Positions 7,826-19,570 of a stretch of DNA of 36,301 nt are shown in pieces. A model generated the notes under the pieces. That model was not told the origin of the DNA and searched no databases. It worked only from the letters and a program-made list of their open reading frames with translations. The position numbers and the translations under genes are program-made. This DNA is from an uncultured Butyrivibrio sp. (GTDB lineage: Bacteria; Bacillota; Clostridia; Lachnospirales; Lachnospiraceae), in NCBI GenBank assembly GCA_947168335.1, contig CAMVLM010000023.1:1-36301 (forward strand), given 5' to 3'. Position 1 is the stretch's first letter, and each line of letters opens with the position of its first letter.

Positions 7826-10000
7826 ATGGGAAAAGTTAAAAAAGGCATACTCTGCGGCATGGTTTTTATCATTGCTGTGGGAATGCTGTTTGCATTATCG
7901 GTAAAAACAGGAATCAAAAACAAGTCGGAGGACGTAAGACCTCCGCTTTTTGATACACCCTCATATGTTGAAGTGTCAGAAAAAGAGCCGTTGACGGTAA
8001 AAGTAACTGCGGATACTGATGCCCATCTGGGAAGCCTCAGCGCAGTCATAGTTAATACTGATTCCAATGGAAAGGGAAGTATCGGATTTAAACTGGTTAA
8101 GGATGATGGCGAACTTATCTTTGAGACAGAGGTTCCTGAGGCAGCGGTCACTGTCGGTGAGTGGTTTGAACTGGGAACTCCGGAAATCATGATAAGTTCC
8201 GGAGAAAACTATGAGCTGACAATTGAGGCAAAGGGGTGTAATCCATATTTCATAAAGACTCAGATAGATGCAACAAACAGGATACTTCCGTTCACAGAGA
8301 CTGTTGTAAAGAAAGATGCTGAGCTTGGCAATGGCATATCAATCGGTACATCAATTGTTTCTGATGATTATCTGACTTATGGAGAGATATTCTATTATTC
8401 GAAGCTGATAATTGTTTTGTTGGCAGCTGCCCTTATTATGTTTATCCTGCTTGGAAAAGAGGGAACTGTCTCATTATTAAATAAAATACCGCTTGAAAAT
8501 GCAGTTAAAAATTTTGGTAGTGATATTTTCCTTGTTATTTTATTCATAACAATATGTTTTTCCATATATATCAACGGATATCTTGAGGGAATCAATATAA
8601 GTGCTGATTCTGCGGGGTATTTGAGAGAAGCTGTAAATATGGCATCAGGCCATGGTTTTCACTATGATGGCCTTGCCGGCTACAGTAACACATGGTTTGC
8701 AAACTGGCCTATTCTCTACCCGCTGATGATAGCTGCTGTGATGAAAATTACAGGAATGGAAGTTTATGCAGCCTCCAAGCTTCTGTCCATGCTGCTTGTG
8801 GGTGTGCTTATCGCAGTTATCAGATTTGTTTATAAAAAAGACGCCTGGTTTTATGGATTGTTCATGACCAATCTGGGACTAATGTATCTGTACTGGTATT
8901 CCTGGAGTGAACTTCCGTTTATTCTCTTTATGGTGCTGTTTTGTCTGGCTCTTACGCGGGTCATCAGTGATGAAAAGATGTATATCAGGAGTTATGTATT
9001 CCTTGGACTTACTATGATACTGTGCTTCCTCACCAGATACTTCGGTATTTTTACCTTTGGAGTGATGGGATTGTATATACTTGTACTTATGTTCAAGAAT
9101 TTCAGGGATAACAATCACAAATTATTTAATTGGAAAGTCGTGGCGATGACAGTCACATCTGCAATATCCGGTGTTATTTGCCTGCTGTATCTGATAAACA
9201 ACAAGATACAGAATGGCATGCCCTCGGGCGTCAGCAGATCAATGTGGTGGGACGATTATCAGAGTCTTACAAATGACCTTGTAAAAGCCCTTTTATGTGA
9301 GATTTTCAATATATTCCATATGGATGTTCCTTCATACATAAATACTATCAGCTATGGAAAAAGTGTTCTCATAGTTATGCTGGTAATATTGATGGGTGCT
9401 GTGTTTATCCGGAAGAATTGCAGACGTTTCACAAGAGCATCCGTTTTTATTACAACGGGTATAGTGTATTATGCAATGTTTACGGTAATCAGGTATTTTT
9501 CATCTATGGATACCTTTTACTACAGATTTTTTGCACCGGCGACTTTCCTTATCACATTGGGACTGGCGGAACTGCTTATTAAATATGTGAAGGATGGAAG
9601 GATATATAATTATCTGCTTGTGGGAGCAGCGGTTTATCTTGCTATTTTTGCATACGGTGATCTGACTGAGCATATTATGAAAAAGAGCATTCCGTACTAT
9701 GATATCGTCCAAATGTCATGGGATGAGGATTATAGTGAGATTCCCGATCACAGTGTTGTTATCTTCAGTACCCTTGATTACAGATCGCTTTATTACAGAG
9801 CCGATGTTGTGGAAGGAACAATAGAGCCTTCCGATACTATGGATACATTAAGAGAAAGATATAATAACAGCAGTTATATGTGCATACTCACCTCAGATGC
9901 CATGGCTATGCGGGATGCGGGCATTTATGATTCCAGCATAAATGAAGCTATAGATAATGCTGTCAGTGAAGGAAATAAATATTGCGTCATAGGGTTGTAA
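7826..10000 (+). CDS. GT-C-like multispanning membrane glycosyltransferase
   Basis: 724 aa. One membrane helix (about residues 5-25) precedes a polar domain (about 40-185) that looks beta-rich and external, a second helix at about 190-210, then about ten hydrophobic helices to residue 620 and a soluble C-terminal domain. In the first big external loop, after the helix at 232-250, the sequence ISADSAGYLREA puts an Asp (D261) where GT-C enzymes of the ArnT/PMT type hold their catalytic acid. Such enzymes transfer a sugar from a polyprenyl phosphate donor to lipid, protein or glycan outside the cell. With the preceding GT2 and FAD genes it forms a plausible three-step set. The polar N-terminal domain is unusual and may bind the acceptor. 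The acceptor is unknown. Confidence 0.75.
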   Translation: MGKVKKGILCGMVFIIAVGMLFALSVKTGIKNKSEDVRPPLFDTPSYVEVSEKEPLTVKVTADTDAHLGSLSAVIVNTDSNGKGSIGFKLVKDDGELIFETEVPEAAVTVGEWFELGTPEIMISSGENYELTIEAKGCNPYFIKTQIDATNRILPFTETVVKKDAELGNGISIGTSIVSDDYLTYGEIFYYSKLIIVLLAAALIMFILLGKEGTVSLLNKIPLENAVKNFGSDIFLVILFITICFSIYINGYLEGINISADSAGYLREAVNMASGHGFHYDGLAGYSNTWFANWPILYPLMIAAVMKITGMEVYAASKLLSMLLVGVLIAVIRFVYKKDAWFYGLFMTNLGLMYLYWYSWSELPFILFMVLFCLALTRVISDEKMYIRSYVFLGLTMILCFLTRYFGIFTFGVMGLYILVLMFKNFRDNNHKLFNWKVVAMTVTSAISGVICLLYLINNKIQNGMPSGVSRSMWWDDYQSLTNDLVKALLCEIFNIFHMDVPSYINTISYGKSVLIVMLVILMGAVFIRKNCRRFTRASVFITTGIVYYAMFTVIRYFSSMDTFYYRFFAPATFLITLGLAELLIKYVKDGRIYNYLLVGAAVYLAIFAYGDLTEHIMKKSIPYYDIVQMSWDEDYSEIPDHSVVIFSTLDYRSLYYRADVVEGTIEPSDTMDTLRERYNNSSYMCILTSDAMAMRDAGIYDSSINEAIDNAVSEGNKYCVIGL

Positions 10001-10004
10001 ATAA

Positions 10005-10033
10005 TTAACAATGTTGTTTCCACATATTGTAAA
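10005..10033 (+). promoter_or_regulatory. Possible promoter of hybrid kinase gene
   Basis: TTAACA (10005-10010), 17-bp spacer, TGTAAA (10028-10033). A start site about 7 bases later would leave the ATG at 10034 out of the transcript and favours the ATG at 10055. Confidence 0.35.
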
Positions 10034-10054
10034 ATGAAACAAAGGATAAACCAT

Positions 10055-11656
10055 ATGGGAATCAATGTGAACAGAAATCGAATCAGAATAATAACATGTA
10101 TAATTCTTATGTTACTGTCGCTTTTTATGGGGGCAGTATCTTTGATGTATTCATGGCCGATAATATATCTTCTTGTGTTTACTTTCTCGTTTGCACTTTT
10201 CCTTGTGTTTGGCGTGTATATTTATGTCTCCGCCAGAAGACAGAGCGATTATGAAAAGTTAAGACATGAGAAGGATGAAATAATAAAGGAAGCGGACAGG
10301 AAAACAGAGTATTTCGCAAATATGTCCCATGAGATAAGAACGCCGATAAATGCCATTATGGGTTACAATGAGCTGATTCTCCGCGAATACAATGATCCTG
10401 CTTTGAGACAGTATGCGAGCAATATAAGATCCGCAGCCAACTCTCTTCTTGCCATTGTAAATGATTCCCTTGATTATTCCAGAATAGAAGCAGGAAAAAT
10501 GAAGCTTTTCCCTGCTGAGTATGATCTTGGCATCCTTATTGAGGAGCTTGTAAATATGACGCGCCCCAGAGCTTTGTCTAAAGGTCTGGAACTCAGATGT
10601 ATCGTAAATGAAAGCATACCCAGAGTGTTGTACGGGGATTCTGACAGGATTAAACAGTGTGTTATAAATATCCTGACAAATGCTGTTAAGTACACAGAAG
10701 AGGGAGAGATTGTTCTTGCTGTGGATTATCAGGAAGTTCCACAAAATGAATCGGATGGAAAGACAGAGATCGATCTGGAGATTTCTGTTCGCGATACCGG
10801 AATTGGAATAAAAGAGGAAAACCTTAAGAGACTCTATAAGCCCTTTGAGAGGATTGATGAGGAAAAGATAAAATCAGTAGAGGGTACGGGACTTGGTATA
10901 ACCATCGTCAAGAAGACTCTGGACCTCATGGGATCAAAGCTTGAGGTAGAGAGTGTATACGGAGAAGGAAGTAATTTCCATTTTACTGTCAAACAGGAAG
11001 TTATGAGAACGGATCCAATCGGCAATTTTGAGCAGCTTTATGCAGAGAAAATTGTTGATCAGATGGCATATAATAACAAATTCATCGCTCCCGATGCCAG
11101 AATCCTGGTAGTTGATGATGCGGAGATGAACCTGTCGGTTATAGAAGGTCTTTTGAGAAAGAGCAGAATTCACGTTGATTCAGCCCTCAGTGCGCAGACC
11201 GGAATTGAACTGGCAAGAAAAAATGATTATGATCTTATTTTCCTTGATCTTCGAATGCCCGGAATTGGTGGAGCGGCAATGGTCAAAATGCTGAAAGAGG
11301 GCGAGAGTGAAGAAAAAACTGAAAAGCGAAGAGATTTCTGGAATCAGCCCCTGTCAAAGGTAAAGGAAGAAAATGATGATGATTCCCAAAACGAAGAGAG
11401 CAGGAACAAATATACTCCCTGCATAGCTCTTACAGCCGGAGCACTTCAGAGGGTGCAGTCAGATTATGTGAAACAGGGATTCTCCGATTATCTTCTGAAG
11501 CCTATTGTGTATAAGGAACTGGAGATGATATTGATGCACTATCTTCCGTCTGAAAAGATTCTGATGACAGATGATGAGAATAGAGATAAGCCTTTATTTA
11601 TGACAGAGAATAAACTGATAGAGGCAATGGAGATCTTGGAGCACAGGAGTAACTAA
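10055..11656 (+). CDS. Hybrid sensor histidine kinase with C-terminal receiver
   Basis: I choose ATG 10055 because AAAGGA lies 8 bases upstream; an in-frame ATG at 10034 has no ribosome site. The 533-aa protein has two close membrane helices (about residues 10-33 and 36-60), then the dimerisation domain with the H-box FANMSHEIRTPINAIMG (H92 from this start), a full HATPase domain (N-box INILTNAVKY, G1 VRDTGIGI, F-box YKPFERI, G2 EGTGLGIT), and a receiver (ILVVDDAEMN, phospho-Asp in FLDLRMPG about 398, Lys in LLKPI). The receiver has an acidic insertion of about 30 residues before its fourth strand. There is no extracellular sensor of any size, so it may sense membrane state or a partner. It is the only complete ATP-using kinase of the next four genes; its stop is followed directly by the next start. 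Confidence 0.93.
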   Translation: MGINVNRNRIRIITCIILMLLSLFMGAVSLMYSWPIIYLLVFTFSFALFLVFGVYIYVSARRQSDYEKLRHEKDEIIKEADRKTEYFANMSHEIRTPINAIMGYNELILREYNDPALRQYASNIRSAANSLLAIVNDSLDYSRIEAGKMKLFPAEYDLGILIEELVNMTRPRALSKGLELRCIVNESIPRVLYGDSDRIKQCVINILTNAVKYTEEGEIVLAVDYQEVPQNESDGKTEIDLEISVRDTGIGIKEENLKRLYKPFERIDEEKIKSVEGTGLGITIVKKTLDLMGSKLEVESVYGEGSNFHFTVKQEVMRTDPIGNFEQLYAEKIVDQMAYNNKFIAPDARILVVDDAEMNLSVIEGLLRKSRIHVDSALSAQTGIELARKNDYDLIFLDLRMPGIGGAAMVKMLKEGESEEKTEKRRDFWNQPLSKVKEENDDDSQNEESRNKYTPCIALTAGALQRVQSDYVKQGFSDYLLKPIVYKELEMILMHYLPSEKILMTDDENRDKPLFMTENKLIEAMEILEHRSN

Positions 11657-13468
11657 GTGGAGCTGATATTTAACTTATATCTGGAATTGGCAGCACTGCC
11701 TTTTGACATAATATTGTGTGTGTATTTCTGGTATAAATACAGAGATACCTCCAGAGTAAACAGGGAATTCAGGATTCTTGCATTCCTTGTTACGATTGGT
11801 GACCTTATAGACGTTATGGATGCAGTCTATGTGAGCCTTGGACCGCTGATACCACCTCTATTCAGGTATCTGCATAATACGGTTACATATTCTATTGCTA
11901 CTATTGCTGCTTATCAGTTTGTAAGATATGTTACAGCTTATGTAGGTGACAGATACAAGACCAGTATGGGCAGTTTTATAAATAAAACTATCTTTTATAT
12001 GTATGTGGTCATTCTTGTTCAGAATGTTTTTACCGGCACGGTTTTCTCCTTTTCAATGGATAAGGGGGCAGTGTCAGGTCCTTTATATACGTTGATAGTT
12101 TATGCGTATCCTTTTTATTACATACTTTTTGGCGGAGTATTCATACTTACTCACAGCGAAAAATACACAAAAGCCATGAAATATGCGCTGATGATAGCGT
12201 TCTTTTTCATGGTTGGAATGTATATTGTTCAGATGTTCTTTGACAGACACCTTTTGGTTACTTTCTTTGCGGCATCGGTAAGCCTTTTTGTAATATTTCT
12301 TACATTGGAGACTCCGGATTACGCCAAGCTCAACAAAACAATGGAGGAGTTATCCATTTCACGGCGTGAACTGGAGGCCACAGGAATCAGGGCAACTGAG
12401 ATGAGCAGGGCTAAGAGCCGATTCCTTGCACAGATGTCAAATGAGATAAGAACACCGGTAAATGCAATAATGGGTTACAGTAATCTGATCCTTGCTGATA
12501 CCAAGGAGGAGAGTACAAGAGAGTATTCCCAGAGAGTTAAGATTTCCGCCAACAGACTGCTTGCTTTCTTTGAAAACGTGCTCAACTACGTTTCAGAGGA
12601 ATCGGATGAAAATGGTCCGAGAAGATTACCGTCACTGGCGGATCTTATAGAGCAGACTGATGAGAGTGTGTACCTTAAAGACAGTGATACCACAAGGCAC
12701 AAGGCCGTGGGCGGAGTGTCCGGGGTCAGAATCCTTGTTGTGGATGATTCAGAGCTTAATATAGATCTTATGGTAAGGATGCTAAGACCTGTTGGATTTA
12801 CTGTTGATACTGCAACCAATGGCAGGCAGGCAATTCTGCAAGTGAGGAAATTCCGCTATGATCTGATATTCATGGATCATCTGATGCCTGTGATGGATGG
12901 AACAGCAGCATTAAAACAGCTTCGTGATGAGAAGCTTTGCGAGGATACACCTGTGGTAATGCTTACTGCCAATGCGATCAGTGGTGAGGAAGAAAAATAT
13001 CTCAAACAGGGTTTTGCCGCATATCTGACAAAACCGTTTACAGAGGATTCAATCCTGGAAGTACTTAAGAAATTCCTGCCAATCACTGACAGCCAGTGGA
13101 AGGGAGAAGTTGGAATCAGCGCATGGGAGGATCTTCAGGAAAAACTGCCAACTGTCAGAGTTGCTGATGCCAGAGAGTATTTCTTACATGATATAGAGTT
13201 TTACAAGGAGTTGCTGCGCGCCTTTGCGAATAATGGAATTGGAACGGAACTTAGTGCTGCAATAAGAAAAGGAGATTATTCACTGTGCCTTGCCATGATA
13301 AGGTCTCAGCATGATTGTGCTATTTTCCTTGGAGCGGAAACAATCGTGAAAATAACCGAGAGACTGGAGAGCCTGCTTAAGAAGGGTGATTATGAGCTCT
13401 TAAGAGAAAGAGCCGGAGCATTTTTAGCTGAGAAAAATATACTGGCAGAGCAGATTGAAGCTATTTGA
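11657..13468 (+). CDS. 7TM protein with degenerate H-box, receiver and degenerate HPt; no ATPase
   Basis: Starts at GTG directly after the kinase stop, with GGAG ten bases upstream, so translation is coupled. It is 603 aa. Residues 1-218 form about seven membrane helices ending in TLETPDYAKL. Residues 252-312 look like a histidine-kinase dimerisation domain, but the H-box reads MSNEIRTPVNAIMG: Asn262 replaces the phospho-acceptor His. No HATPase domain follows. A receiver (ILVVDDSELN, D407 in FMDHLMP, Lys in LTKPF) comes next. The C-terminal helical domain resembles HPt, but the place of the HPt His has Arg549 in IRSQHDCAIFLGA, with a His three residues on. So only the receiver Asp looks phosphorylatable. 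It may be a scaffold, a phosphate sink, or a dimer partner for its paralogue at 13869 (inference). Confidence 0.85.
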   Translation: MELIFNLYLELAALPFDIILCVYFWYKYRDTSRVNREFRILAFLVTIGDLIDVMDAVYVSLGPLIPPLFRYLHNTVTYSIATIAAYQFVRYVTAYVGDRYKTSMGSFINKTIFYMYVVILVQNVFTGTVFSFSMDKGAVSGPLYTLIVYAYPFYYILFGGVFILTHSEKYTKAMKYALMIAFFFMVGMYIVQMFFDRHLLVTFFAASVSLFVIFLTLETPDYAKLNKTMEELSISRRELEATGIRATEMSRAKSRFLAQMSNEIRTPVNAIMGYSNLILADTKEESTREYSQRVKISANRLLAFFENVLNYVSEESDENGPRRLPSLADLIEQTDESVYLKDSDTTRHKAVGGVSGVRILVVDDSELNIDLMVRMLRPVGFTVDTATNGRQAILQVRKFRYDLIFMDHLMPVMDGTAALKQLRDEKLCEDTPVVMLTANAISGEEEKYLKQGFAAYLTKPFTEDSILEVLKKFLPITDSQWKGEVGISAWEDLQEKLPTVRVADAREYFLHDIEFYKELLRAFANNGIGTELSAAIRKGDYSLCLAMIRSQHDCAIFLGAETIVKITERLESLLKKGDYELLRERAGAFLAEKNILAEQIEAI

Positions 13469-13483
13469 CGGAGGCTATAGAAG

Positions 13484-13849
13484 GTGATTAAAAGAGTTTT
13501 GGTTGTAGAGGATTCTGAAGTCGAGGGAATCTATATAAAGGGCCTTTTGGACAGGATCGATAAGGTTGATGTGACCATTGTAAGAACACATGCCGAGGCA
13601 ATCGAATGCTGTAATAAAAGCGCCTTTAACCTGGTGCTGATTGACAGTATCATGCCTGATGCAGAGCCCTATGAGCTTCTTGATGCTATTCATAAAACTT
13701 CCGATAATCAGAAAGTGAAAGCACTGGTAATGGGTAATGCCTCTGATTTTGCAGAGGAAAACTATCTGGAAAAGACAGGATTTACAAATTATCTTGAGAA
13801 ACCTTTGGAATATCATATGCTTAGAGCAGCGATATCCATGTATGCTTAA
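13484..13849 (+). CDS. Stand-alone receiver domain (CheY-like)
   Basis: 121 aa from GTG 13484 with GGAGG upstream. It is one receiver domain: acidic pair VVEDSEVE, phospho-Asp in LVLIDSIMPD (about D53), and Lys in YLEKPLE. The usual Thr/Ser in the fourth strand (MLTA) is replaced, the text reading LVMGNASD, which may alter the phosphorylation switch. It has no output domain. In this position it is likely a phosphate shuttle or sink between the flanking multidomain proteins. The gap to the next gene is 19 bp with AGGAGA. Confidence 0.85.
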   Translation: MIKRVLVVEDSEVEGIYIKGLLDRIDKVDVTIVRTHAEAIECCNKSAFNLVLIDSIMPDAEPYELLDAIHKTSDNQKVKALVMGNASDFAEENYLEKTGFTNYLEKPLEYHMLRAAISMYA

Positions 13850-13868
13850 AAATTAGGAGACTTTAATT

Positions 13869-16355
13869 ATGACAATTAGTCCCGCTTATGAAATAGCAGC
13901 AATATTTTTTGACATAGTGGTATGTGTATTTGTCGGACTGACATACACTGATTCGTCAAAAACATCAAAATCGTTTCTTAGATTCGCAGTACTTTTGACC
14001 ATAGCATGTATGGGTGATGCCTTTACCTGTATTATCATGGCCAACGATGCTTTTTATGGGCTGTACGTCAATTATTTTATACATGCATTTAATATATTTT
14101 CATCCACACTGGCAGCTGAGGCTTACACGGAATATGTTATTGCATGTACCGGTGTTGACATTAAGAGTCTTGTTTTTACCAAGATAAATGTGGCTGTTAT
14201 AGTAATTCAGACATTTTTGATCCTGCAGAATCTGTACACCGGAAATGTTTATACATACAGCGTTGAAGCTGGGTACGCGCATGGACCTCTTTTTATTGCG
14301 TGCTCTATAATAGTGCCTCTTTATTACATACTTCTGGCAACGGGATTTATGGTTGTAAACTATATGAGTTATTCTGTCCTTCAGATTGCCAGTATGTCGG
14401 TATCTACGGTTGTTCTTATTCTTGTGTACGTATTACAGATCATGTTTTTCCAAAGGGTGTCACTTGCATTTTTTGCGGCATCAATTGCTTTGCTGATATT
14501 GTTTTTTACTCTGGAAACGCCGGATTATCACAAGCTTGAAAACACAATTGATAAACTTGAGAAAGCCGAGAAGGATGCCCACGAAGCCAGGAGAAAGGCC
14601 GAGGAGGCAAATGATGCAAAAAGTGAGTTCCTTTCTCAGATGTCCCATGAAATAAGGACACCTATTAACTCAATTCTTGGCTACAATAATCTGATCCTTG
14701 AGAACACCAAGGAAATCAAGACTTCTGAGTATTCGGGAAAGATAAAGGGTGCAGGCGAAAACCTTCTGGCCTTTTTCAATAATCTCCTCAGTGTAATTGC
14801 GCAGAACGACGGAGAGACTGTAGATATAAAGAAGCTTTTTGATTATTCGTCCCTGATCGATAAGGATGTGGATGAAGTCCTTGTGCCGGTTATGCCCAAG
14901 GCATCTGTTCTTGTTGTTGATGACAATGCCATGAATGTAGACCTTCTTCTGAAAATTCTGAAAAAGACCGAAATGACGGCTGATACTGCCACTGATGGGC
15001 AGAAGGCACTGATGAAACTCAGGAAAAGAAAATATGACCTTATCATCATGGACTATATGATGCCTGTTATGGATGGCGTAGAGACACTCAGTATCATGCG
15101 TGAAGAAAGACTATGCCCGGGCTCTCCTGTTGTCATGCTTACTGCAGGCGGTTTAAGAGGTGATGAGGGCAGGTTTAAAGAGCTTGGTTTTGATGCATAT
15201 CTTACAAAGCCGGTTGTGGCAAATACACTCTACGAGCTTTTGAGTGATATTATGCCGGTGGAGCTTATAGAACAGAGAACTACTCTTGATAATCTTTTTT
15301 ACAAGGAAAATCAGGGAGCAAAAACCACGACTGAAAGTGTTGCCAAAAGAAGTCTGGAGGACGTTTTCGAGGGAATCGATACTAAGGCCGGACTGTCATT
15401 CTGTATGGATGACGAAGAGTTCTATATATCCCAGCTTGAGATGTTTGCTGACAGTGGCAAGGGAGATGAGCTGGAAGGCTATTTTGAAAACAAGGATTGG
15501 GACAATTATCTCATAACTGTTCATGCTTTTAAGAGTACTGCCAGAACAATAGGCGCCAACGATATAGCTGACGAGGCACTGGCGTTGGAGACGGCACTTA
15601 AGGAAGGAAGACCGGACGAGGTTCTGCAGGGACATTCCGGACTAAAGGAGCATTTTGACAAACTGGCAGAGATGATCAACAAGGGAATTGCGGAGATAAA
15701 CAGTGCTCCGGAAAGTCCGCAGATAATCGAAGAGCCACAAACGGCCATCAGGGATCAGGAGAAAGCATCTGATGCTGTAAGCCTGTCAAATCAGATACTT
15801 CTTGCTCTTGCAAATACAGTTGATTCCAGAGAGATGAACGGTCATGGAAGATCCATGAGAGTTGCCAGATACTCTGCGGAAATAGCAAGGCGACTTGGAA
15901 AGAGTGAAGAAGAGCAGAGAGATATTTATTTCATGGGGCTTGTGCATGATATTGGAAAACTGGTAATCCCTGAAAAGATTTTGAGGAAACCTGATTCACT
16001 GACAGATGAAGAATCGGAGATTGTAAGGCAGCACCCCATTATAGGATATGAGATCCTAAGGAATGTATCTGAGATGCCGGGACTTGCCACGGGAGCCAGA
16101 TGGCACCATGAAAGGTATGATGGAAGCGGATATCCTGACGGACTTATGGGAGAGGAGATCCCCATAGAGGCAAGAATCATAGGCATTGCCGATGCGTATG
16201 ATGCAATGACGTCAGAGAGACCCTATGCTTCGGTTATGCCTCCCTCAAAAATAATAAAAGAACTGGATAAAAACCGTGGAATACAGTTTGATCCAGTTCT
16301 TGCGGATATACTGATTGAAATGATAGGTGAGAGCGTAAAAGCCTTCGAACCCTGA
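13869..16355 (+). CDS. 7TM–H-box–receiver–HPt–HD-GYP phosphodiesterase
   Basis: 828 aa. Residues 1-217 are a 7TM region clearly paralogous to that of the gene at 11657 (shared QNLYTG, GPLF, PLYYIL, FFAAS, TLETPDY). A charged coiled coil (225-250) leads to a dimerisation domain with intact H-box LSQMSHEIRTPINSILG (H260) but no HATPase domain. Then come a receiver (SVLVVDDNAM, D395 in IMDYMMPVMDG, K448 region), an HPt domain with its His kept (VHAFKSTARTIGA, H552), a linker, and an HD-GYP domain (LVHDIGKLVIP with H693-D694, then HHERYDGSGYPDG). HD-GYP enzymes hydrolyse c-di-GMP. The protein thus offers phosphorylation sites at a His, an Asp and an HPt His upstream of the phosphodiesterase, but needs another protein to supply phosphate; the hybrid kinase at 10055 is the obvious candidate. 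Confidence 0.92.
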   Translation: MTISPAYEIAAIFFDIVVCVFVGLTYTDSSKTSKSFLRFAVLLTIACMGDAFTCIIMANDAFYGLYVNYFIHAFNIFSSTLAAEAYTEYVIACTGVDIKSLVFTKINVAVIVIQTFLILQNLYTGNVYTYSVEAGYAHGPLFIACSIIVPLYYILLATGFMVVNYMSYSVLQIASMSVSTVVLILVYVLQIMFFQRVSLAFFAASIALLILFFTLETPDYHKLENTIDKLEKAEKDAHEARRKAEEANDAKSEFLSQMSHEIRTPINSILGYNNLILENTKEIKTSEYSGKIKGAGENLLAFFNNLLSVIAQNDGETVDIKKLFDYSSLIDKDVDEVLVPVMPKASVLVVDDNAMNVDLLLKILKKTEMTADTATDGQKALMKLRKRKYDLIIMDYMMPVMDGVETLSIMREERLCPGSPVVMLTAGGLRGDEGRFKELGFDAYLTKPVVANTLYELLSDIMPVELIEQRTTLDNLFYKENQGAKTTTESVAKRSLEDVFEGIDTKAGLSFCMDDEEFYISQLEMFADSGKGDELEGYFENKDWDNYLITVHAFKSTARTIGANDIADEALALETALKEGRPDEVLQGHSGLKEHFDKLAEMINKGIAEINSAPESPQIIEEPQTAIRDQEKASDAVSLSNQILLALANTVDSREMNGHGRSMRVARYSAEIARRLGKSEEEQRDIYFMGLVHDIGKLVIPEKILRKPDSLTDEESEIVRQHPIIGYEILRNVSEMPGLATGARWHHERYDGSGYPDGLMGEEIPIEARIIGIADAYDAMTSERPYASVMPPSKIIKELDKNRGIQFDPVLADILIEMIGESVKAFEP

Positions 16356-16356
16356 T

Positions 16357-17070
16357 TTATTTGAGAGAGTACTCGGTTAGCATTCTTGCAGCTTCCCGGA
16401 GGCTCTCTCTTCTTATGTGGACAGAATCTCCATCTTTCATAACGAAAACCTGAAGATCCTTATCAATGCTTTTTACATGTGCAAGGTTTACCAGGTAGCT
16501 CTTATGGCAGCGCATAAAGGAATCATCAGGTGTCTGCGCTTCCACGTTGTCAAGTTTGCCGGTAAGCTGCAGAACTGCACCGTTTGCCATGTGGAGGAAA
16601 ATGGTGTGTGAACTTTGCTCTGCATAGCAGATTTTTTCATATGCAAAGTTCATGTCCTTGCCGTTTATTCGCAGTGTTACACCGCCCTGGCCATCCTTCA
16701 TCTGAAGTGCAAGATCCAGGACTTCACCAACTTCGGTTGGATCAAAGGGTTTCATCAGGTATCGGATTACTCTGTTTTTATAGCCGTCCATAGCGTGATC
16801 CTTGCTGGCTGTGGCAAAGGCAATAGGTACGGAGGAATCTACTGCACGTATTTTGCTTGTGACATCCACACCGCCCATACCCGGCATAAGAATATCCATA
16901 AAGATCAGGTCATAAAAACCCGGTCTGAAGGATTTAAGGAACATTTCACCTGATTCGAAAAGGTCTATCTGACATCCCGGGTGCTGTTTCTCTATAAGAA
17001 ATTGTAACTGGCGTCTTTGTGAAAGCTCATCATCACATACGGCTATTCTGAAATCGTCTGTTTTGCTCAT
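16357..17070 (-). CDS. LytTR-family response regulator
   Basis: 237 aa on the minus strand, start ATG at 17068-17070 with GAGGG seven bases upstream. Residues 6-125 are a receiver (IAVCDDELSQ, phospho-Asp in LIFMDILMPGMGG, Lys in YLMKPFD). Residues about 140-235 are a LytTR DNA-binding domain (MRCHKSYLVNLAHVKSID). Members bind direct repeats and often control surface polysaccharide, bacteriocin or virulence genes. No cognate HPK10-type kinase is next to it. Its stop lies one base from the stop of the convergent HD-GYP gene, so each transcript must run into the other. Confidence 0.93.
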   Translation of the reverse strand: MSKTDDFRIAVCDDELSQRRQLQFLIEKQHPGCQIDLFESGEMFLKSFRPGFYDLIFMDILMPGMGGVDVTSKIRAVDSSVPIAFATASKDHAMDGYKNRVIRYLMKPFDPTEVGEVLDLALQMKDGQGGVTLRINGKDMNFAYEKICYAEQSSHTIFLHMANGAVLQLTGKLDNVEAQTPDDSFMRCHKSYLVNLAHVKSIDKDLQVFVMKDGDSVHIRRESLREAARMLTEYSLK

Positions 17071-17123: not shown

Positions 17124-17150
17124 TTTATATGGGCATAAAACAAATGTCAA
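17124..17150 (-). promoter_or_regulatory. Promoter of LytTR gene
   Basis: On the minus strand TTGACA (complement of 17145-17150) is followed after 15 bp by TATAAA (complement of 17124-17129). The spacer is slightly short, but both hexamers are close to consensus. Confidence 0.5.
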
Positions 17151-17186
17151 GTACGAAATTTGAAAAATACATTGCATTTTCTGATG

Positions 17187-17270: not shown

Positions 17271-17933
17271 ATGAAAAGATATTCTTCAAAAAGCAGGATT
17301 ACTTTGCTTGTTCGCATGTTTACAGTGGCATGCTTAGTTTTTCTGCTCTTTGGAGGAACTTGCTCCGAAACGGTTCATGCTTCACATCCAAAGTACTATA
17401 CCAATCATGTAATATTTACTGCACCAAGTGCTGAAAAGATATACGACGGCACACCTCTTACAGAACAGATCGATGTAACGGTGCAGGGACTGCCTGAAGG
17501 CTTTACTTATAAAGCTGTCGCAGAGGGCAGTGTTACTTATCCCGAAGATAACCAGGAAAATAATAATATAGTTACCGATTACATAATCTATGATCAGAGT
17601 GGACTTAATGTTACGGAGCTTTTTGTAAATGTTGAACTTCGTCCGGGCACTCTGAGAGTAAGCTATTCGAACGCAGGTGTGTTGGGAGCAAGAAGAGACA
17701 CTAAAGGAAATGTAACAGGATTTGCGTATACCGAACCCGTCGATGAAGATGAAGATAAAAACGTTGAGATAGAGGATGAGGACACTGCTAAAGCCGGAAA
17801 ACTGAATAATTCTGTGGAAACGTTGCCTATGAGCACATTTTCAGTAGAAGTGCTGGTGTATAGTATCCTATTTGTTATTTTGCTTGCGGTATTTGGAGTT
17901 TTTGTTACTGATAGCAGGAAGATGAGGGAATAA
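17271..17933 (+). CDS. Membrane-anchored extracellular protein with YDGTPLT domain
   Basis: 220 aa. A signal peptide (about 1-37, hydrophobic VRMFTVACLVFLLFGG) is followed by one external domain with the motif KIYDGTPLTEQ, which in Firmicutes surface proteins marks Ig-like or MBG-type repeats. After an acidic stretch (EPVDEDEDKNVEIEDED) comes one membrane helix (about 190-212) and a short positive tail. So the protein is held in the membrane with its domain outside. Its stop overlaps the ATG of the GGDEF gene (TAATG), implying a fixed stoichiometry; it may act as a co-sensor for that cyclase (inference). The exact ligand is unknown. Confidence 0.75.
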   Translation: MKRYSSKSRITLLVRMFTVACLVFLLFGGTCSETVHASHPKYYTNHVIFTAPSAEKIYDGTPLTEQIDVTVQGLPEGFTYKAVAEGSVTYPEDNQENNNIVTDYIIYDQSGLNVTELFVNVELRPGTLRVSYSNAGVLGARRDTKGNVTGFAYTEPVDEDEDKNVEIEDEDTAKAGKLNNSVETLPMSTFSVEVLVYSILFVILLAVFGVFVTDSRKMRE

Positions 17934-19570
17934 TGAGATCTATACAGGAAAAAGTTACTTTGCTTATAACAGTGGCTATCCTTGTGGTAGCACTTGCGGT
18001 CGGACTTACTGCAGCCTATTCTCTTAGACTTGCAGGAGGCTATGATTCTGCTCAGATATTGAGCCTTACCTGTGAAAATGAAGCAGTAAGTATTAACAGA
18101 AGACTTTTAAATACAGAAGAAGCGGTTCAGATTCTTGCAGACTATGCCATAGAGAGACTTTTTTCGGTAGAAAAGCTTGTAAATGATGATGGATACAGAG
18201 ACAGCTATACGGTTCAGCTTGGAAATCTTTTCGCTGATATTGCCAAGAATGTTTCGGGAGCTACAGCATATTATGTACGTTTTAATCCTGAGATAATGCC
18301 GGCTGATTCGGGACTGTACTATGTAAAGAATGCTGAAGATGACCAGTTTGCTGCAGAGAAAAATATTGATCTTCTGGCATATGATGAGAATGACGTTAAC
18401 GTAATCTGGTGGCATAAGCCGGTTGACAACGGAGCACCTACATGGATTTCTCCCTATTACAGTGAATCCAGGAATGCTGAAGTTATCTCTTATGTTATCC
18501 CGCTTTATGAAGATAATGTTCTGGTTGGAATAGCCGGAATGGACATAGATTTTAATGAAATACTTGAGGATGTAAAGAAGGTCAAGATTCTGGAAACCGG
18601 TTATGCATGCCTCGCCAATAATGATGGAACAGTACTCTATAATCCAGGCTTTGAAGCTGGCGGTAACATGAGCGATATGCCTATTAAGGAGTCTCTTTCT
18701 TTTGAGGCACTCAGCAGTGGCAATGTTCCTATAAAGTATACTTTTAACGGAATAAAGAAGCAGATGGCGTACAGAACACTGGCTAATAACATGAGAATTA
18801 TCATCTGTGCTCCTACAAGTGAGATAAATGCTACAAGTAACATGGTAATAAGACAGGTTCTTGTTTCTACGGTAATGGTTCTTTTGACATTCCTTTTCCT
18901 CACTGTAATGCTTTCAAGAAGAATCACAGGGCCTCTTAAAGAGCTTGCTGATGTGGCCAGACAGATTAATGAAGGAAAACTCGAGGTGAATTTCCCTGTG
19001 GAAACAAAGGATGAGGTAGGAGAGCTTACCCACGCCATGGAGAAGATGGTACATCATCTGAAGCATCATATTGATGACCTTAATTCACTTGCTTATCACG
19101 ACTCACTGACTGGTGTTAAGAATAAGACAGCATATGATGATGTGGCTGCGAAACTTGATGGTACCGAAGGTGAGAAGGAATATGGCATAGTAGTACTTGA
19201 TGCCAATAACTTAAAGAAGATAAATGATACTTACGGCCATGAGAGAGGCAATATCTATCTGCAGAATGCCTGTAAACTTACATGCCGTATCTTCAAGGGA
19301 AGTCCTGTTTTCAGAGTGGGGGGAGACGAATTTGTTGTGCTTCTCCAGGGCGATGATTATGATAACTGCTACAAGCTGATGAGAGATTTTGACGTTGAAG
19401 CAGAGAAACATAACAAGATGACCGAGAATGACTGGGAAAAGATAAACATCGCCAAGGGCATGGTTAAATATGACCCTGAAACTGATAAGAATATGGAGTC
19501 CGTATTTAAGAGAGCAGATGCCAGAATGTATATAGCAAAGCAGAAAATGAAGCTTGCTGAGGCACTCTGA
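17933..19570 (+). CDS. dCache–HAMP–GGDEF diguanylate cyclase
   Basis: 545 aa. A helix at 8-30, an external double-Cache-like sensor (about 35-300, with WISPYYSESRNAEVISYVIP and GIAGMDIDF typical of dCache_1), a second helix (about 305-327), HAMP (330-382), and a GGDEF domain (385-545) with the active motif RVGGDEFVV at 462-470. It should make c-di-GMP from two GTP in response to an external ligand. The RxxD inhibitory site normally just upstream of GGDEF is absent (the segment reads IFKGSPVF), so feedback control at that site is not expected. It is coupled by TAATG overlap to the YDGTPLT protein. Confidence 0.93.
   Translation: MRSIQEKVTLLITVAILVVALAVGLTAAYSLRLAGGYDSAQILSLTCENEAVSINRRLLNTEEAVQILADYAIERLFSVEKLVNDDGYRDSYTVQLGNLFADIAKNVSGATAYYVRFNPEIMPADSGLYYVKNAEDDQFAAEKNIDLLAYDENDVNVIWWHKPVDNGAPTWISPYYSESRNAEVISYVIPLYEDNVLVGIAGMDIDFNEILEDVKKVKILETGYACLANNDGTVLYNPGFEAGGNMSDMPIKESLSFEALSSGNVPIKYTFNGIKKQMAYRTLANNMRIIICAPTSEINATSNMVIRQVLVSTVMVLLTFLFLTVMLSRRITGPLKELADVARQINEGKLEVNFPVETKDEVGELTHAMEKMVHHLKHHIDDLNSLAYHDSLTGVKNKTAYDDVAAKLDGTEGEKEYGIVVLDANNLKKINDTYGHERGNIYLQNACKLTCRIFKGSPVFRVGGDEFVVLLQGDDYDNCYKLMRDFDVEAEKHNKMTENDWEKINIAKGMVKYDPETDKNMESVFKRADARMYIAKQKMKLAEAL

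Follow-up and report, generated by a model that had tools for sequence, protein, structure and literature searches.

A candidate split hybrid-kinase phosphorelay with two ATPase-less 7TM receptors in a rumen Butyrivibrio

We analysed a stretch of 36,301 nucleotides (hereafter the window) from an uncultured Butyrivibrio sp., a rumen bacterium. It contains a gene for a hybrid histidine kinase (K) followed by genes for two 7TM proteins, P2 and P3, that carry phosphorelay domains and no ATPase domain. Together with a nearby LytTR response regulator, these genes are strongly supported as one genetic unit. Their domains and conserved residues point, with a probability of roughly 0.55, to a split hybrid-kinase phosphorelay, in which K would phosphorylate its partners in trans, P3 would relay phosphate and set the level of c-di-GMP, and P2, a receptor without phosphoaccepting histidines, would act as a brake.

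Gene order, co-inheritance and operator of the island

K (10034-11656, forward strand) is a sensor-less hybrid kinase composed of a TM hairpin, a DHp domain (H99), a HATPase domain and a receiver (D405) with a variable insert. In Pfam it matches HisKA (E = 1.4e-19) and HATPase_c (5.9e-24), and its receiver match is interrupted. The initial annotation had recognized the ATPase of this upstream protein and placed its start at 10055 instead of 10034. K abuts P2 (11657-13468, forward) in the window and overlaps it in several orthologues; the start codon of P2 is a GTG behind a plausible ribosome site. Next on the forward strand are R, a one-domain receiver (13484-13849), and P3 (13869-16355), which is convergent with the gene for the LytTR response regulator (16357-17070, reverse strand). 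A candidate dyad operator (17146-17185, forward) separates the latter from S (17271-17933, forward), a small secreted protein anchored by a C-terminal TM segment, and from a dCache-HAMP-GGDEF diguanylate cyclase (17933-19570, forward; GGDEF 4.4e-24 in Pfam). The initial annotation had not mentioned the R gene, the HD-GYP domain of P3 or the conserved genes for LytTR, S and the GGDEF protein that lie to the right of P3.

Conserved residues were counted over 12 orthologous loci, one per species (11 initially, with NC2002 as the twelfth). All 12 genomes, that of the window among them, have the order K-P2-R-P3. The surroundings of the island differ: the gene to its left in the window (7826-10000) has a homologue at only two of ten loci, although the contig of L072 starts about 1.7 kb before K.

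Among 79 genomes of the genus, K, P2, P3, the LytTR gene and the operator seed described below were each found in the same 12 and were absent from the other 67, a cut-off of E ≤ 1e-50 being applied to P2/P3-type matches. Two further genomes (G048 and G033) had one P2/P3-type match each, of another architecture. K orthologues of the island genomes reached 566 bits or more, compared with 370 bits for the next best among the matches listed; LytTR orthologues scored at least 375 bits, compared with 108 bits for the next best in another genome. K adjoins P2 in all 12. The island genomes may form one clade, in which case the co-occurrence would not be phylogenetically independent. The earlier proposal that one kinase drives several membrane proteins stands as far as the genetic unit is concerned, K being present only together with P2 and P3 in these 79 genomes; the phosphotransfer itself we infer. 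In wider searches, which scored a capped number of candidates per genome, the matches listed placed contiguous DHp-receiver proteins (E ≤ 1e-50) in at least 9 of 397 genomes of the family, the window's own among them; for the class the figure was at least 1 of 291, again its own. In 348 phylum genomes searched at E ≤ 1e-36, the matches listed held no full-length match beyond its own, with receiver-only partials. All these figures describe the spread of the P2/P3-type subgroup, as distinct from ATPase-less HisKA proteins in general.

The genes to the right of P3 were similarly conserved. The LytTR protein has both a receiver and a LytTR domain in Pfam, with the receiver residues present in 11/11 orthologues. 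S, which had no Pfam match, was found at all nine other loci whose contig extends that far, and the GGDEF motif of the cyclase was present in 11/11. Between LytTR and S, GTCAAGTACGA was invariant in 10/10 aligned intergenic regions, with drifting flanks. Exact matches to the seed GTCAAGTACGAAWTWTG numbered 41 across the genus, with 1 to 8 in every one of the 12 island genomes and none in the other 67; the reversed control gave none anywhere. With two mismatches allowed, the window's own genome yielded four matches and the reversed control three, so only near-exact copies are meaningful. The operator is an inverted repeat with 13-base halves, and in 31 copies the dyad was completed beyond the seed to TACGAAWTWTGAA, 8 bases and TTCAWWWTYCGTA, the outer bases not being part of the query. 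In the window's own copy the seed is followed by a TTCA..T..GTA half, this second half being just partly kept. Binding sites of LytTR proteins usually consist of two direct repeats.

Flanking genes were counted for 31 of the 41 copies (loci L314, L315, L320-L347 and the window). Eight copies precede S, with the LytTR gene divergent. The other 23, classified by eye from N-termini and hydropathy, stand before (i) a signal peptidase I gene (six copies), (ii) a long surface protein of one family (seven), (iii) other secreted-looking proteins (seven), or (iv) unassigned genes (three). In the window's own genome, Pfam matches of three genes downstream of such copies were signal peptidase S26, InlB B-repeat and, below the cut-off, MucBP. 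Of the island proteins scanned, only LytTR has a domain recognised as DNA-binding, and it is thus the likely reader of the dyad site. The operator-linked genes are its likely regulon, and the exact co-occurrence of operator and system offers a ready transcriptional readout for testing the latter. S and surface proteins encoded elsewhere in the genome also have a VLGARR motif in common; it precedes the C-terminal membrane anchor and once stands directly before LPQTG (L318:686-5800 and 9187-10335). This motif is possibly a sorting or processing signal.

Two receptors without an ATPase

P2 and P3 are paralogues with 35% identity over aa 9-587, and their N-terminal hydrophobic regions show six and seven hydropathy peaks, respectively. 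Pfam identified HisKA (2.9e-12) and a receiver (1.4e-25) in P2, and HisKA (1.6e-10), a receiver (3e-23), Hpt (1.4e-05) and HD_5 (3.5e-38) in P3. Neither had a HATPase match at E ≤ 1, which bears out the earlier description of two paralogous 7TM phosphorelay proteins lacking this domain. The H-box and the start of the receiver are separated by 96 residues in P2 and 86 in P3; the initial annotation had put the distance at about 80 and had seen no N, G1, F or G2 boxes in it. DHp and receiver lie 42 residues apart in P2 and 34 in P3, compared with roughly 190-200 in ATPase-bearing relatives. Since the HATPase_c model is 111 positions long, no divergent HATPase can hide at residues 310-345, a possibility that had been raised.

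Both proteins had been credited with an H-box and an HPt-like domain, which is correct for P3 (H260, H552) and incorrect for P2 as regards the histidines. In the DHp of P2 (12389-12601, forward) the H-box reads SNEIRTP, and N262 (codon 12440-12442) replaces the phosphoacceptor histidine; Asn was found in 12/12 orthologues. At the corresponding site of the degenerate HPt-like domain (13124-13444, forward) P2 has R549, and the orthologues have R, M or T in 12/12. P2 is therefore without a histidine phosphosite. Its receiver (12728-13072, forward; phosphoacceptor D407, codon 12875-12877) keeps the DD, D, T and K residues in 12/12, so P2 should be phosphorylatable on the receiver only. Behind the lost histidine, position 263 is E or D and position 266 is T in 12/12 orthologues. 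An E/D-x-x-T motif has been tied to phosphatase activity (PMC3591291); the motif cited there includes the histidine that is absent from P2.

Mean pairwise identity among P2 orthologues was 59% for the 7TM head, 87% for the DHp, 77% for the receiver and 61% for the HPt-like domain. The DHp is thus the most conserved domain of the protein, with 50 of 71 columns invariant, and it is more conserved than the DHp (83%) or the ATPase domain (70%) of K. Because a DHp with neither ATPase nor histidine is conserved at least as well as that of a true kinase, its sequence indicates that it is not a relic and must serve contacts or phosphatase action. Why the most conserved part of P2 should be a domain lacking both is the question that this protein poses. 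Sequence searches against solved structures matched this domain to ordinary DHps and yielded nothing convincing for the 7TM head, which also had no Pfam match at E ≤ 1. With P2 as query, 77 matches were obtained in the window's own genome, nearly all to HisKA or receiver parts.

Judging from its residues, P3, unlike P2, could transfer phosphate, and its enzyme output is an intact C-terminal HD-GYP domain. H260, D395, H552, the receiver residues and the HD-GYP residues were kept in 12/12 orthologues. Its c-di-GMP phosphodiesterase domain (15783-16325, forward) has the HD dyad and the HHE..DGxGYP motif, with the HD, HH and GYP residues in 12/12. Mean pairwise identity was 84% for each of the DHp, the receiver and the HD-GYP domain. 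The two proteins that had been taken together as scaffolds thus appear to be different things, namely a possible relay with an enzyme and a protein open to phosphorylation on its receiver only. In R, which lies between them, the phospho-Asp, a Gly and Lys were each present in 12/12, Gly replacing the switch Thr.

The residues H99, N216, D254, G256, G284, G286 and D405 of K were present in 12/12 orthologues; from the receiver of one of these, an active-site Asp and the Lys are missing. K has no sensor beyond its short TM hairpin, and in 2/12 genomes it has no TM segment at all. These two versions (L068:9810-11237, reverse strand, and L072:1678-3108, forward strand) would be soluble.

Ancestry and kinase neighbours of related proteins

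Three trees (7TM head, DHp-receiver and kinases) were calculated by a quick method without bootstrap. Nine duplicate loci (L098-L102, L104-L107) were dropped before the tree, FF and neighbour counts, and L103 was kept. The DHp-receiver tree comprised 160 rows and was built without L258_6, L259_4, L260_4, L261_9, L311_6 and L312_6. In this tree P2, P3, L108_8, L109_8, L208_7, L214_7, L218_4 and L245_7 clustered in a single ATPase-less group (SH-aLRT 98), whose sister comprised three one-piece kinase-HD-GYP proteins (support 94). One ATPase-less clade beside one-piece proteins suggests a single ATPase loss within the group. Further losses were separate in the same tree (L087_5, L235/L238 and L239_10). 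One-piece proteins of the order 7TM-DHp-ATPase-REC-HPt-REC-HDGYP occur in other genera (L111, L113 and L210-L213, of which L111 and L113 were checked with Pfam), and their existence makes it plausible that the split parts act in one pathway. An FF pair in DHp helix 2 was found in 29/34 ATPase-less DHps and in 0/159 kinases; as 24 of the 29 are P2/P3 orthologues, its independent support comes from about five groups (P2, P3, L245, L218 and L108/L109/L208).

A single origin of the 7TM-DHp joint was not supported, since the 7TM tree separates P2 and P3 and the DHp-receiver tree unites them. This disagreement makes domain shuffling likely. Only 3 of the 54 members of the 7TM head family matched HisKA_7TM (PF16927), and these weakly (best E 3.3e-05); no Pfam family matched more than 4 of the 54. 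The head occurs on complete hybrid kinases, directly on HD-GYP proteins and on two GGDEF proteins, and a 7TM-REC-HDGYP form also exists. At L074-L080, L110, L114, L115, L231 and L247 it is joined directly to an HD-GYP domain in proteins of about 440 aa. These fusions lack any phosphorelay domain, and the head can therefore act without phosphate.

Other ATPase-less proteins had different N-termini or surroundings. At L260 (6568-9225, reverse) and L311 (5323-8007, forward), ATPase-less DHp-REC-HPt proteins have an N-terminus resembling an iron-sulphur, hydrogenase-like domain, the cysteine motifs being recognized by eye. Solitary 7TM-DHp-REC-HPt proteins with both histidines and no kinase nearby were seen at L235 (6301-8259) and L238 (5468-7405); the genes around them look flagellar by eye, and their ATPase loss is a separate one.

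A same-strand kinase within 3 kb was found for 32 of the 35 ATPase-less proteins with full flanks, 23 of which are P2/P3 orthologues, compared with 32 of 111 full kinases. Counted by lineage, 9 of 14 have a kinase-like neighbour (Butyrivibrio, L087, L108/L208, L214, L218, L245, L258, L259 and L260), and eight have one not seen to be degenerate, the exception being L108/L208. The lineages without a kinase within 3 kb are L109, L235/L238, L262, L311 and L312; L312 has flanks of only 4.7 and 4.4 kb, a kinase lies about 4.5 kb upstream at L262 (L239_6), and L261 was left out of this count as it lies at a contig edge. The expectation that such proteins always sit beside an intact kinase was thus rejected as a rule. 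Homologues without a nearby kinase, named beforehand as an observation that would tell against the proposal, do exist, all but L109 being outside the P2/P3 clade or not placed relative to it.

Within the clade, six loci lie beyond Butyrivibrio. An apparently intact adjacent kinase was present at three of them (L214, L218 and L245), a degenerate one at two (L108 and L208) and none at L109. Pfam checks of the neighbour kinases covered L245_6, L108_7 and L208_8; in a search with strict motif strings, G1 of L214_6 and the N-box of L258_5 went undetected. The clearest sister case is that of L245, where a sensor-less K-like kinase is followed by an ATPase-less DHp-REC-HPt-REC-HDGYP protein, whose 7TM head is cut to one helix, and then by a REC-HPt protein. 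At L108 (7487-8962) and L208 (7982-9445) the K-like gene is present minus its histidine and ATPase boxes (L108 has a HATPase match with E = 0.017, and L208 has none at E ≤ 0.1), and the 7TM partner persists. At L109 (8977-10848), in the same neighbourhood, the K-like gene is gone, and a start resembling its own leads into the 7TM gene. Loss of the kinase with retention of the partner weighs against strict dependence in that lineage. In the kinase tree, the kinases beside clade members grouped weakly, in a 14-row group that includes three others (84) and in a 17-row group (91), with a long branch common to two of them. L087_6 and L258_5, the two kinases beside ATPase-less proteins that are not in the clade (the partner of L258_5 was absent from the DHp-receiver tree), fell elsewhere.

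Proposed phosphorelay, alternatives and known systems

In the phosphorelay that we favour, K, which has no sensor, would be the only ATP-using member, and the 7TM receptors P2 and P3 would sense without using ATP. After autophosphorylation on H99, K would hand the phosphate on in trans, either directly or by way of its receiver. The recipients would be the receivers of P3 (D395) and P2 (D407) and perhaps R, and H260 and H552 of P3 would serve as phosphotransfer sites. Two outputs are predicted, (i) degradation of c-di-GMP by the HD-GYP domain of P3 and (ii) action of the LytTR protein at the dyad operator on the secreted surface protein regulon and on the island's diguanylate cyclase. P2 would be a receptor subunit whose DHp provides a surface for interaction, and its most likely role would be that of a brake set by a ligand. 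Braking could take the form of DHp-assisted dephosphorylation through the kept E/D-x-x-T residues, together with the phosphate-accepting receiver. More tentatively, the island might represent a modular receptor kinase of an undescribed kind, with sensor-less K as the shared catalytic subunit of two ATP-incapable 7TM receptors, the P2 DHp as purely an interaction or phosphatase surface, and a c-di-GMP output and operator-defined surface regulon of its own. A single conserved cassette would then set both a second messenger and the surface coat.

The initial annotation had suggested mixed dimers through a shared dimerisation domain, and K could in this way phosphorylate H260 of P3 across a dimer of K, P2 and P3 DHps. 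All three proteins carry HisKA-type DHps, the His-less DHp of P2 is highly conserved, and heterodimerisation has been described for RetS and GacS (PMC12189002). However, positive sequence support for mixed dimers was not obtained, and we regard them as doubtful. In similarity the DHp of K ranks 53rd (to P2) and 100th (to P3) of 159, for six further ATPase-less proteins the kinase next door ranks between 20th and 145th of 159, and the helix-2 FF pair of P2 and P3, absent from K as from every kinase compared, would fit P2-P3 pairing better. It is also conceivable, though unlikely, that P2 and P3 are mainly phosphate-free, with the 7TM head moving the DHp bundle and so gating the receiver and HD-GYP domain, and with other targets for K. 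Such a mode would agree with the 7TM-HD-GYP proteins without DHp or receiver in several related genomes, with the 7TM-REC-HDGYP form, and with the persistence of the ATPase-less partner where the kinase is degenerate or gone. It agrees poorly with the invariance, in 12/12, of the P2 and P3 receiver residues and of H260 and H552 in P3, and with the presence of K in exactly the P2/P3 genomes.

The genome is rich in kinases, nearly all of the 77 matches to P2 being to HisKA or receiver parts, and solitary ATPase-less homologues exist, so that other hybrid kinases might phosphorylate P2 and P3 with the neighbouring K being incidental; the restriction of K to the same 12 of 79 genomes and its position beside P2 in each render this quite improbable. 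That P2 is the decaying, non-functional copy of a hybrid kinase would account for its loss of two histidines and the ATPase, yet with the DHp and receiver identities given above over 12 genomes and the invariant Asn this is scarcely credible, and P2 was rejected as a pseudogene.

Compared with known systems, the split phosphorelay shares single features with several of them. RcsD has a His-less kinase-like part; RetS, in contrast to P2, contains a kinase-like CA domain, and its gene lies elsewhere. The RcsC-RcsD-RcsB system likewise combines a hybrid kinase with a separate membrane phosphotransfer protein (PMC12471899, PMC12189002). The C-terminal HPt, however, is the working site in RcsD, whereas P2 has R, M or T in its place and P3 has its H-box histidine and an HD-GYP domain besides the HPt. 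RetS, a protein resembling a hybrid kinase that restrains GacS by heterodimerisation and by drawing off phosphate (PMC12189002), provides a model for P2. Spo0B, including the membrane-bound Spo0B-TM (PMC12826061), is a kinase-derived DHp protein with a histidine and no working ATP-binding domain that relays phosphate between receivers, and PhyT is a membrane-bound histidine phosphotransferase whose conserved histidine relays phosphate and which holds its target at the membrane (PMC5898713). By sequence, P3 alone of the two receptors resembles this type in having a DHp with a phosphoacceptor histidine and no working ATPase. It differs from Spo0B in adding a 7TM head, a receiver of its own, an HPt and an HD-GYP domain, and P2 differs in having no histidine. 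The output of PhyT is PhyR and the general stress response, and its abstract mentions no receiver or HD-GYP fusion (PMC5898713). The likeness to HisKA_7TM sensors is limited to the weak matches of three head-family members, the head of P2 being unmatched.

Closest in principle are the split kinases CheA3/CheA4 of Rhodobacter sphaeroides (PMC3591291), in which, as proposed here, ATP use and phosphotransfer sites are on separate proteins. Here, in contrast, the DHps are of the HisKA type, there are two membrane receptors, one of them without any histidine, and the output is an HD-GYP domain. Since K keeps its own histidine (H99, 12/12), receiver and DHp, the split is not complementary as in CheA4, and of the two receptors P3 is a HisKA protein without HATPase that could transfer phosphate, and P2, with Asn in 12/12, is not. 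HisKA proteins without HATPase made up 3.66% of the 42417 HisKA proteins in SMART (n = 1556; PMC3591291). The system had been proposed as undescribed, which does not extend to its kind: split kinases are known (PMC3591291), and it is this particular system of which the literature searched, at the level of titles and abstract openings, held no description. Non-chemotaxis split kinases have been counted in databases but, in the part of PMC3591291 available, without a defined partner, ancestor or output. In the island described here, a kinase and its ATPase-less receptors are co-inherited, one-piece relatives show the likely ancestral domain order, and stages of kinase decay are visible in L108, L208 and L109.
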